The notes beneath the pieces were generated by a model, which ran no database searches, had not been told where the DNA came from, and saw only the letters and a list, made by a program, of their open reading frames with translations. From Telopea speciosissima (lineage: Eukaryota; Streptophyta; Magnoliopsida; Proteales; Proteaceae), in assembly GCF_018873765.1 (NCBI RefSeq), contig NC_057918.1:9742862-9806861 (forward strand): DNA of 64,000 bases, written 5' to 3'. Shown here in pieces: positions 19,901-28,900 of this stretch; position 1 is the first letter of the stretch, and each line of letters starts with the position of its first letter. A program made the translations under genes and the position numbers.

Positions 19901-22900
19901 TCCACACATTTGCATTTCCATATTTTCTCAAGCATTCATCATAGAAACCGTACCTGAAACAACACCCACAAAATAAAGTATCTGCAATAATCAGACAAAA
20001 AAAGAAAAGAAAAGAAAAGAAATGAAGAAAACATATCTCAAGAAAGATCATAAGATCATTTTACTCCACTTCCTCAAACAGCAGTGAGACCACATTATTT
20101 TACATTCCTAAGCACATCAAAGTCACAGGCAGCAGTGAGAGACCACATTATTTTACATTCCTAAACACATCGAAAGCAAGAAGTTCAGAGTATCAAGATG
20201 GGATAGAACAATATTCAATTCCCAAATACAGCTAGGGCACCAGCGGGTCCAATGGACCCTGTTAAGGTTTATACCATGAGAATCTTTGTGTAGATTTCCT
20301 GCGGTAGTAATATTCCGTTTTGGTTTGTTTATAGTAAGTAGCTAACAAGATAGGCTGAGTGTCCCTATTGTGGTATATCATAGTGATAGTGTTCCTTTAT
20401 AGTTGGTCTTCTTTCCTAGTTAGACTGTTAGTTAAGTCTTCTATTTCTGCAAGGCTTCTAGTCTTTGCTCTTTTGTGATTGGGAATATATATCTACACTG
20501 ATACAATGGAGGAAGGCTGTGCTTCTATCGGCTGCTCTTCTCCTCGCAGTCCCATTCTTCTCTTCTTTCATTCTCTCTCTCTCTCTACTTGCAGGTACTG
20601 GTTACAGATTCTGGGTTTGTTACATGGTATCAGAGCTGTAACCAGTAGCTGATTTGACAGTCGTTCAAGTCCTCCGATTTGTGGTGAAACCCTAGTTCAT
20701 AGAAGAACTACGGTTTCGTATGGGTTTCAATGAAGATTGAAGTACGTGTATCTGCTACTTATGAAGATTGATGAATCATACCCGAATCAATTCATATATT
20801 TCATATTTGCTGCTATCGATGGAGTCGATTTGCTAATAGCGTTTTATTGTAGAAGACGCTTATAGTTTTTGGTTTACTACTGGCTATCGTTAGCTGAAAC
20901 TGAAGCTAGCTCTCGACACTGAAAGATTTGCTGCATTTTATCTCAAACCAAATCTGCTGAACCAGAGTTTCATGTTAGGTCTGAGAAGAAGACCTACTGC
21001 TCCAACATATTGCTGACTTTACTTCTGTTTTCCCCCTCTGATTTTATAACTAGAAGCTCAGGTCGAGTATTACTCCCGGACCGATTTTTGATTATCCATG
21101 CTGGGAGGTTTAAGGGGAGAAGAGGTGTTTTCCTGAAGCAACTTCCGTCTGGATTGCTTCTCGTTATGGTGCCATTCAAGATTAATGGTGTTCTTAGCAC
21201 TTTCCGCATTGCCTTCCTCTGCATATTTTCTGTGGTTGCGTGACTGACAACATACTTTCTTTATTCCCAAAAGTTGCTCCCTGGTTTCGTCTTGAGCAAG
21301 GAGACAATTGAAGTCCTTTTCAATTCGTTACATCTAACCTACCCTAAAATACCCCTTCGTTTCATGTGAACACAACAATCGTAATCTTTCCCCTTTGTCA
21401 TCATTACTTCATTTATTTGGTTTCCATAAATATCCCTCCCATTACCATTAAGTCCCCCTTGTTCATATTTTACTTCCTATTCCAAGTTTACCCTTTGGCC
21501 TTAGCTAGAGCTAAAAATTGGATTTCAACTAAATTATGTCAATTGAGATATTTACACTTTTGTCACTTCTTTTTTAACTATCCATGGATCCCTTAAAACA
21601 TTATGGTTAATTACCATATTCCCACTATCTCTTGATCTTGGCATATTTTGAATATTATTTTGCTTGAGTGGTCCCATAAGTATAGCTAATAATTGAGTTT
21701 CAACCCGGGATTGCATGGAATATTAACAGAATTGTCTTTGGTCATATATTTGTAATTTTATAGCTTTGGTAGGCCCTAGTTAGCATCAGTTTGGGATTTG
21801 AAATTTTTTTTGGAGATTGATACTTGCATGGAGATTATTTGCTACCGTAAGGGGGAGATTGGAGATTAATTTTTTATCGGAGATTATTTGTAACTGCTCT
21901 TGCTGATGCTGATAATTATATGATTGTTCAATATTATTTATAGGAATTTCTGCATTATTTGTCCACGTGTAATGTTACACGTGAGGGGGAGATTTAAGAT
22001 TTTTATCAACTCAGTCACCAATGGAAGAATATTATTATTTATTTGTTCGTGTCCTCAACAACAATTTTATCTGTAAAGATGGTATACAACAACAATGCAA
22101 TTTGTTTGGTCTACAACAATCTGATGCTGAGTTATTTGGTTCGCAGTGACCTATACTGTGCTTTTATCTGGTTCACAACAACCTATGCTGAAATTTTATC
22201 TAAGCCCTTTGTTTGGGGCTTAGGAGTAAATTTGATCATTACTAATGAGATCTTGGTTTGTAATAACCTATATTGCATTTTTATTAGTGGAATTTTATCC
22301 GAGACCTCTGTTTGGGGCTCAGGAGTAAGTCTGATTGATGCAGATACATCACCAAAAGAGACTAATTTTAATGGGAATAAGTCTAGGGTTGGGTTATACA
22401 CATGTTGGACCTATGATCCCATGGATTTTCAATGTAATAGGCTACTTTTACGGGCCTAAACTATGAGTCTGGATCTGCTCCCCACTTGGGTACGGGGGGA
22501 CAGATCTGAGCCCTCTAAGGGGCGTGGGTCCCACACCGTATGGAGGGTTCAGATCTGTCCCCAATGCTCCCCATGTGGGTAGCTGATCCCTACTCCTAAA
22601 CTATGGGTCATAAGGTTGCATACGGGATTAATCAGCTTAGTTTCCGAACTTAGTTTTTTTTTGAAGTCTCTTGTTTTTTAAATTGAACTGAGTCCAAGCT
22701 GGTCCAACCAATGGTTCAATTTAAGTGATTTTAGTAGTTTTCTTTTATTTGCTTTAAGCAATGTAAGTTGGGCTGGATTAGGGCTCTACAAGTCCAGCTA
22801 TGTATTGAGTCTATTTCCTTCAGTATTTCAGTTTCCTAGTCAAATTAGGTTACCTAATAGGTTAAGGATTGGGTTAGGCCTTCCCTTTTTAGTGTAGGAG

Positions 22901-25900: not shown

Positions 25901-28900
25901 TCTATACGACAGTAGCAAGCACCAAACAGCCCATGAAAATCTCAGAAAATTAAGTATTATCAACGATGGCAGCAGCAACTAGTTCAAATCCTAAAGCAAC
26001 CGGTGAGGTACAGCAGCAAATGAACAAAAAAGGCAGAATAATAGCAGCAACTGAGGAAATCGCAGATTACTTCAGCAATATGAATTCAAAAATAAATCAG
26101 CAGAATAGCATCCAGAAAATCAGCAATTGATCAGGTATGATTTTTCATACAAATCTTCATTGAAACAGTATATGAAACCCTAGTGCCTCTTCTATAAACA
26201 AGGGTTTCCTTATTCAAACCAGACACCCAAAAAACCTCTCAGAACGGCAATCATTGAGAGAAACAGATACTGGTTACAGCTCTGATACCATGTGACAAAC
26301 CAGGATCTGTAATCAGTATCTGGAATAGAGGAGAGAGGAGAAAAGAGAGAAAGAGATTAAGCGAGAAGAAGAGAGGAGGCTGCCCAAGAGAGAAGTAGTC
26401 GATTACTCTTAGCAGCTTACCTCACATATTATTTATAATAACTAAACCAAGCTTGATAATTGCAATCCTTGCAGAAACAAGGAAGTAAAATCCTAGTTAC
26501 ACCAAATGAAACCACCCTTATCGTGGACATTACAGCAAGAAGAATATACCACAGGGGATGGACAAGAATACTCCCATGGTACATATCTTAACAGACCCTA
26601 CAAATGCAGAGTGTCAAGATTTAGGGAGCAAGAGGAGCTGGATTAGATTTTATGGATATTTTGGGAATGCGTTCTGCCAGCATGCCCTATGGCGGACTTA
26701 AAAATTTATCTTTCCTAGTTCCTAATTCTTAAAAGCAACAAATGCTAGTCAAGATGTTAAAAAGCCAACAACTTCATAACTTTTTTGTGTACCTATGATC
26801 TGACCTTAGTTTCCAAAGTACACTTATTATCTCATTACATGAGAAGATTAAAATTTCATCCTGCCCATGTTTCACGATATGTTTTTCCTTTTGCCTCTTA
26901 TTTTCACGTTGTCCAAACAAGTTTAGACCTGCATTAGATTTTCTTTGATCTTATTCATATTTTCATCTGGTTTTTTTACACCTTGAGGGGGGATGGATCA
27001 GTTGGAAGTCCATATAGACTATAGAGGTGTCTGGTACTTTTTTAATATAATTTGATCGATAAGATTGTTGATTTTTTTTTTTCCACAGTTTTTACAAACT
27101 TTTCATTATCATTACAGTTTAACATGTCGGGGGGAGTTGTATCACGATCTTGAAGGCAGGAGTTTCTCAACATATTAAAAGCATGATTTCCAGGAGGATT
27201 ACAAATCATCTTAATCTGCTAGGTTCAGATCTAAGATTTGTTTATTTGAAGCTACATTCATCAGAGGTGTTTAAACAGAGTTCTGATTCTTGTATTTGAC
27301 TTTTTGTCCTGGCTGTGAGCCTTGGAAAACATAGCTGAGGTTTGTTGTTTGGGGTTAAATTTTGGGCATTTGTTGCACTTTAGGTCTACCATCAAAACCT
27401 GAAGTTTCATTATCACGGAAAAGTTATTTATTCGGATGGTTCTCAGAAAATGAAATTGCATTAGTCTTATAAGACCACAACATCAACCTGACTAACTGAC
27501 TTGGGCTCATATTTCGCAGGTTTAAACCTCTGTAAAGATACCATTCTAACCAATAATTTAAGACCAAACAAACATTGTATGATCAATTTTCTCTTTTGCC
27601 AAAATTAAATACACACTTATGAGTTATGAGAGGGTTCATATGTCCAAACAAATTTGAGGATCAGAGAGCCAGACCTCATTAGTTTTTAGTGTGTTATAGG
27701 TGGCTTTATTCATGCTCAAGCCTAATTTTCTCTGAGAAGCTTCACGTGATTCAGTCACACATTGAATGATCTGCTTTAGGTCAATTGAAGCCTGCTCATT
27801 CTGGATTGTCTGGCTTGCTGAACTTCAGAAGTTATTTTTTATTGGTGTTAATTAACAATTCTAGCAACTTAATTGAGGCCATTGCCCACAAGTGTTTGGT
27901 GTATGTTGGAGGATGGGGAGGTGCTAACACATTACTGTTAAGGTTTGTTTGACCTAATTCTCCTTCCGTGCTTTCAGCTAGCATTACCTCTTATAATTGA
28001 GAAAAAATCTCACTGATGAGTTCATATTAAAAAAGCCAAACTAGGTGCTAATCACTGAATTTTCTTGAATATGAATGAGGTGGCAGAAATTAATAACTCC
28101 AACCTTGCACTAAGGGGCACATGACACAAATTCAGACACGGAAACCTGCTCTAGCAAGCAGTTACACTATAATAATAATAAATTAAAAATAAAATAAATA
28201 AATAAATAAAAACCATAGGAATCTGAAGTCTGAACAGGATGGAAGCTTCTTTGTAATACACCAAACTTGCAATCAAAGTAAGGTCCAAAAATTCATACCA
28301 TATTTCCACACCACAAAGTCTACATAAATTCATCCATACTTGTAGTATACATCTTATCTAATTCAGCCATACTTCCACCATACGCCTTTATCTACTTCAA
28401 AGGAAATCTTATTACATATACATCACTGCTATTGTGACATGAAATGCTAAACAGTCCCCGAAAATGGTCCGGGCATGGACACTAAGAAATGTCCTTAAAA
28501 AACCCATCTTCTTCACAAGTAAACCATCTAAATCCTATATCTCCTAAATCAAAATTTCTATAAGACACTACCATTTCCATTACAAGTAGAACTAGAATTG
28601 CACTTCAGACCATATGGGCATGTGGTTTCACAAAGTTGTGGTACACCACAAATGCACTGAATCATTCTTATGACAAATCAATGGACCTGCCAAATGGAGA
28701 TGGATTCTTCATTGCCATATACATCTCTTTAAATCCTAGGTCAGTTTACATACGCAAGGGTTCTGTTTTGTTGAAATGAAATTGATTCGATTGCTGTTGT
28801 GGTAGATTCTTGGTTTCTTCGTATAAAGTGTATTCAGCTTCTAATCATCACTACAACGAGTTTTCTTAAAAGAAAACAACTCCTTCAAGAAGTCCCACAT

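Follow-up and report, generated by a model that had tools for sequence, protein, structure and literature searches.

Insertions in which two long terminal repeat (LTR) retrotransposons are fused have been described before, in forms that bear on the locus considered here. In the grasses, Sabot and Schulman (2007) found two elements fused within a single 5-bp target-site duplication, an arrangement ascribed to template switching between two different co-packaged RNAs and normal integration (PMC1950507). The recombinant complexes of Devos et al. (2002), as far as they are described in that same paper, have no common flanking duplication, since two insertions gave rise to them (PMC1950507). DIRS-1 is described as a single element with three open reading frames (ORFs) between inverted LTRs, a tyrosine recombinase and circular intermediates (PMC5633606), and paired-end (concerted) retroviral integration in vitro, to the extent that two reports outline it, uses donor fragments (PMC3185514, PMC3037357). 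Here we consider a window of 64 kb from Telopea speciosissima (C3:9742862-9806861, the whole stretch of DNA that was analysed, the genome comprising 823 Mb in 1,287 contigs), in which parts of two LTR elements form one palindromic insertion inside an intron of a gene for the catalytic subunit of protein phosphatase 2A (PP2A). Both outer ends of this insertion are U3 termini (U3 and U5 being the unique 3′ and 5′ portions of an LTR), a product that the normal pathway is not expected to yield. We consider it likely, with a good deal of confidence, that the insertion arose in one event through two U3 ends belonging to two complementary DNAs (cDNAs).

The structure is 6,334 bp long, consists of two inverted halves (arm A, 20260-24014 on the plus strand; arm B, 26593-24015 on the minus strand) and is bounded by GACCC at 20255-20259 and 26594-26598. 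At the left border GACCC gives way to TGTTAAG from 20260, and at the right border CTTAACA runs to 26593 and GACCC follows. An earlier note, made from the letters alone, had described a palindrome with U3 at both outer ends and GACCC on each side, its arms being diverged inverted repeats that meet near 24014, about 50 nt into the U3 of one copy; the sequence and the alignment of the arms bear this description out. The features of the insertion, including the primer-binding sites (PBS) and the polypurine tract (PPT), are as follows.

20255 to 20259, unstranded: left copy of the target-site duplication, GACCC (from the sequence and the empty-site alignment)
20260 to 20624, plus strand: LTR of arm A (LTR-A), 365 bp, with U3 terminus TGTTAAG outermost and U5 terminus GTTACA
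20625 to 20636, plus strand: PBS of arm A, TGGTATCAGAGC, directly inside LTR-A
20637 to 24014, plus strand: interior of arm A, lacking PPT and 3′ LTR
22337 to 23615, plus strand: secondary insert, in arm A only, holding a small foldback at 22462-22598
24014 to 24015, unstranded: join of the arms, with microhomology of at most 1 nt and no filler seen
24015 to 24064, minus strand: first 50 nt of the U3 of the arm B 3′ LTR, the remainder of that LTR being missing
24065 to 24073, minus strand: PPT of arm B, GAGGGGGAG (similar tracts occur in normal copies)
24074 to 26278, minus strand: interior of arm B
26279 to 26290, minus strand: PBS of arm B, TGGTATCAGAGC, directly inside LTR-B
26291 to 26593, minus strand: LTR of arm B (LTR-B), 303 bp, with the U3 terminus outermost (CTTAACA on the plus strand) and U5 terminus GTCACA
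26594 to 26598, unstranded: right copy of the target-site duplication, GACCC (from the sequence and the empty-site alignment)

Aligned with each other, the arms are 73% identical in two blocks of 969 and 425 columns; the block of LTR and PBS is 71% identical over 231 columns, and the first ~50 nt of the LTRs at the two outer ends agree at 37 of 51 sites. Arm B runs through its PPT and on for 50 nt of U3 before the join, and arm A ends 117 nt before the PPT position and 126 nt before the U3 start, as measured on arm B. PBS-like sites with at most one mismatch number three in the window, against 0.21 expected; the third, at 29346 with one mismatch, lies outside the element. The genes and repeats of the window are plant-like in look.

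Most of the traits of an LTR retrotransposon can be recognized in these arms. The LTRs have TG...CA ends (TGTTAAG...GTTACA in LTR-A and TGTTAAG...GTCACA in LTR-B, with similar ends in normal copies of the family), each is directly followed by TGGTATCAGAGC, which presumably matches the initiator methionine tRNA, and a PPT precedes the partial 3′ U3 of arm B; the join leaves arm A without a counterpart. The 5-bp duplication is present on both sides, with a flush empty site. What departs from the type is the arrangement, in which the LTRs are inverted and both outer ends are U3, in place of direct LTRs with one U3 and one U5 outer end. The Copia gag-pol coding capacity expected of autonomous members is also absent: the longest open stretch in the element is 153 codons, and the five stretches scanned, of 12 open stretches of at least 70 aa, gave no Pfam match at E 0.1 and hence none to a tyrosine recombinase ORF. 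The element is apparently a non-coding, Copia-like LTR element, a label that we take to rest on the PBS, the PPT and the 5-bp duplication.

The evidence that one insertion event is involved comes from the host gene and its paralogue. A tblastn search with a PP2A query gave minus-strand exon matches at 30553-30344, 29793-29647, 19952-19842, 19764-19681 and 17534-17337, and on to 16995, and Pfam recognized Metallophos in one of three translated exon stretches, with no match in the other two.

16995 to 30553, minus strand: host gene, protein phosphatase 2A catalytic subunit, given as the extent of the exons found (tblastn and Pfam)

Because the exon matches at 29793-29647 and 19952-19842 flank the element, it lies within a PP2A intron. 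The right flank, from the first base past the duplication (26599), matches one other place, C8:9262144-9262206; the left flank, searched independently, leads to the same locus (C8:9262312-9262481, same strand) and to two uninformative places. The stretch fetched around this C8 paralogue holds two matching PP2A exons. The joined flanks align with the paralogue at 77% identity over 705 columns, and none of the 59 gapped columns lies around the insertion point, which reads GGGTCCAATGGACCC / TACAAATG in the window and GGGTCATTTGGAACA / TACAAAAG in the paralogue (the stroke marks the point). When the offsets of the two flanks were varied within 40 nt (6,561 pairs), the flush join came out best, with 48 of 58 matches against 39 for the runner-up. 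Since the flanks abut flush in the paralogue, the whole palindrome fills one 5-nt target. This comparison, made within one genome and thus with one paralogue and not an orthologue, supports the proposal of the earlier note that the palindrome integrated as a unit through two U3 ends. Two of the flank matches were set aside. The third paralogue, at C8:16883967, is a broken PP2A fragment whose match ends at 20058, short of the insertion point (its positions 878-1594 are 84-86% identical to the window gene and break off in the same intron), and another locus (L047) matched over only 43 nt.

It is worth considering in this light that two elements may have inserted independently in opposite orientations, after which a deletion that began within arm A and ended in the arm B 3′ LTR left the present join, the 5-mers matching by chance. 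Inverted neighbours do occur in this family (one locus, L048, has two members tail to tail, and L014 has a second, inverted copy). If the elements had gone into separate places, host DNA would be surplus or lost at the locus, so the flush empty site is strong evidence against that course with a later deletion. Since the flanks abut at a single 5-nt target, the identical nucleotide would have to have been hit twice, with loss of what lay between. Moreover, GACCC occurs 25 times in the window, so that a match at a given point would arise by chance about once in 2,600. We regard this history as very improbable.

The same observations bear on the possibility of an assembly error at the join. Here the evidence is the assembly itself; nonetheless, the window contains no N bases, the arms, at about 73% identity, are too unlike for easy collapse, and the two flanks, each next to a different arm, come from a single intron, as seen from the paralogue and the order of the exons. 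An error of this kind seems to us very unlikely.

The parentage of the arms was addressed with a tree of 21 rows built on the last ~400 nt of the interior, rooted at the midpoint and accompanied by 200 bootstrap trees. Eleven loci were left out beforehand (those of the window itself, those of the flanks, and L039, L040 and L041, which cover the places of L017, L020 and L010 at greater length); 11 loci with an extracted stretch shorter than 250 nt were dropped, including L017, which is among the closest tails to arm B, and loci without a hit have no row. Under this midpoint root, arm A falls inside a group of 12 rows with support of 98/98 and arm B falls outside it, and arms A and B are paired in none of the 200 bootstrap trees. 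Consistent with this, the best relative of arm A in the query across the junction is 90% identical over 153 nt, against ~73% from arm to arm. Arms that belong to different lineages imply that two cDNAs were involved and not the fold-back of one, and the earlier note's suggestion of two different RNAs gains support accordingly from the tree. A single cDNA folding back on itself, as a self-primed palindrome whose arms diverged after insertion, would account for the family anatomy that the inverted arms have in common, but it conflicts with the tree, in which arm A groups with other copies in the genome and apart from arm B, and the points at which the two arms meet do not correspond within the element. 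On these comparisons two different cDNAs were probably the parents, and a fold-back is extremely unlikely.

Normal copies of the family provide the standard against which the insertion can be judged. They have interior, PPT and 3′ LTR in that order, with direct LTRs, and past the point where arm A stops they continue with AATGAAG or a variant; because they run on past this point, the join is no normal interior. Six normal copies have both ends readable, the count leaving out L059 (left end beyond the stretch) and L041 and L048 copy 1 (ends not placed), and four of the six have 5-bp duplications, three of them exact (ATAAA/ATAAA in L040, AGAAC/AGAAC in L060, TAAAC/TAAAC in L062) and one matching at four of five positions (AAAAC/AAACC in L039). 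Another conceivable origin is a later inversion or gene conversion on one side of an ordinary insertion, recombination being possible between inverted LTR copies. It would nonetheless need a breakpoint at the very boundary of U3 terminus and duplication, and the U5 and U3 termini have only a few last letters in common there; we think this origin highly unlikely. Two normal copies have duplications of their own kind: in L039 (3179-3393) the PPT and the start of U3 are tandemly duplicated (90%) beside the 3′ LTR, and L059 (1-599) has two tandem LTR copies on its 5′ side.

Normal copies also give some idea of age. In the longer alignments their LTR-LTR identity is 79-88%, and the partial 3′ U3 of arm B agrees with its own 5′ U3 at 39 of 48 sites, with four gapped columns, which falls within that range. 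As the arm B pair agrees within the normal range, the insertion seems to be of roughly the same age as its relatives, judged on little sequence, for arm A has one LTR and arm B 50 nt of a second. The duplication of PP2A, whose two stretches are 77% alike, probably came before it.

How might such a molecule have formed? The anatomy is best explained if two different cDNAs of a non-coding, Copia-like family, each with a complete U3 left end, had incomplete right ends, that of arm A being without the 3′ LTR and 126 nt of interior including the PPT, and that of arm B without all but 50 nt of its 3′ LTR, and if these incomplete ends were joined tail to tail. On one route, the fusion would precede integration and would be made by end joining of the incomplete or trimmed cDNAs or by strand switching between plus strands in reverse transcription; integrase would then have used two U3 termini and not U3 plus U5 in a concerted integration that was ordinary in other respects, with a stagger of 5 bp in the PP2A intron. 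We favour this order as the likeliest, while granting it somewhat less than an even chance. The earlier note had suggested template switching between two co-packaged RNAs, a step that may have occurred; the overlap of at most 1 nt fits end joining at least as well as template switching.

The other route within the same single event is that one intasome held the U3 ends of two cDNAs and inserted both into one target, the free right ends being trimmed and end-joined afterwards, so that the palindrome formed after strand transfer with the same anatomy. The two ends in concerted integration can come from two donor molecules. This route would cover the two U3 ends, the 5-bp duplication, the two lineages, both distal losses and the overlap of at most 1 nt without any strand switch, and concerted integration of two viral ends into a circular target has been carried out in vitro from donor fragments, as far as one report describes it (PMC3185514). 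Against it, no case in vivo stood among the entries listed in the search of the literature, and a chromosome break must be repaired. We hold it to be a genuine possibility, of lower probability than joining before integration. With no filler seen and an overlap of at most 1 nt at the join, end joining suits either route; the final sequence is equal in the two cases, and one locus cannot separate them. The anatomy, the flush empty site in the paralogue, the 5-bp duplication and the separate lineages of the arms are observed; that both cDNAs shared a particle or an intasome, and how and when they were joined, is what we infer.

Recurrence was examined in two ways. With positions 23860-24180 as a junction query, 40 of 664 first-look candidates were scored, so that other junction copies could be missed, and among these a match spanning the join was found only at the window itself. 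Family PBS sites were taken as the first 100 of 162 in the whole genome for one pattern and the first 100 of 142 for a second, in union 141 sites. Among these 141, two convergent pairs lie within 15 kb, namely the window and C1:16739151/16744645 (L048), and no divergent pair was found; in a wider set of PBS sites (100 of 4,281, with 0 mismatches, 99 of them on contig C1), inspection by eye showed two divergent pairs within 15 kb and none that converge. The search for other copies with inverted LTRs, which the earlier note had called for, thus returned one further candidate, which was rejected: L048 holds two elements, each with its own 3′ LTR, and the 5-mers flanking copy 2 differ (the outer ends of copy 1 are not cleanly placeable). 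These two family members lie tail to tail at 1653-8014, ~90 bp apart, and beside them is the apparent coding 3′ end of another Copia-like element. As far as the sampling goes, the insertion is a rare accident and not a member of a replicating palindromic family.

Several observations weigh against a single event through two U3 ends. The empty site is a single one, in a paralogue of 77% identity with 65 nt matching the right flank, and the target letters are unequal, GACCC in the window and GAACA in the C8 paralogue. Two of the six normal copies lack matching 5-mers (ACTCA/GTTCC in L061 and CTCTT/CACCA in L048 copy 2). Both convergent pairs among the 141 sites are closer than 6 kb, where ~0.02 would be expected at random; this excess shows that neighbouring insertions do arise, and counts a little for two independent insertions. 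Finally, the insertion is the only one of its kind found, and the pathway has no support from recurrence.

Other features of the locus can be noted. A short palindrome, GGGTCC-AAT-GGACCC (20245-20259), has the target at one of its arms; according to the title of one report, palindromes are often targeted by LTR retrotransposons (PMC6911290). In the left flank, 20086-20174 contains a 36-nt direct repeat at a spacing of 53 nt, and the C8 paralogue clearly aligns to one copy only. The 1.28-kb secondary insert of arm A (22337-23615), unmentioned in the earlier note, is perhaps a solo LTR; it has a TATA-like stretch near 22919 and, by eye, CTGAT near both edges, its first 125 nt match 2297-2173 of the window at 80%, and pieces of it are also present in L004, L012, L018 and L023. 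The foldback within it (22462-22598) has core arms of 33 nt, 82% complementary, with a 1-nt spacer, and is perhaps a miniature inverted-repeat transposable element.

If the insertion is read as a single event, it indicates, on the evidence of the empty site, that an element whose ends are both U3 is able to go through concerted integration and leave a duplication of normal length. Annotators would have a class that programs searching for direct LTR pairs overlook, and it would become possible to count, in assembled genomes, how often cDNAs fuse or two donors integrate. Were the two-donor route the true one, retroelement integration could go through a two-donor stage of break and repair and still be inherited, the chromosome being kept together by the joining of the trimmed far ends of the cDNAs.

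Among the entries listed in a search of the literature, judged by titles and abstract openings, there was no inverted U3-U3 LTR insertion, and it is informative to place the present one among the systems that come closest. Like the complexes of Sabot and Schulman, it comprises two elements in one insertion with a single flanking 5-bp duplication. Those complexes are head to tail, with a third, internal LTR between the two internal regions and with outer LTRs that are much alike and in direct orientation (PMC1950507), whereas the present insertion has inverted halves, U3 at each outer end and no complete internal LTR, only the 50 nt of the second arm B LTR at the join. The likeness to the complexes of Devos et al., within what is described of them, is that two elements are fused at one place; unlike them, this insertion has a duplication common to both sides and a flush empty site. 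DIRS-like elements are not known to leave a target-site duplication, in contrast to the 5-bp duplication and flush empty site found here. DIRS-1, as far as its description extends, likewise has inverted LTRs at its two ends, but the present structure consists of two copies of a direct-LTR family fused together, with no coding sequence detected and a 5-bp duplication. With concerted integration in vitro, the locus has in common two viral ends, one target and a fixed stagger; what sets it apart is that it is an old insertion in a plant genome, made with two U3 ends of different copies.

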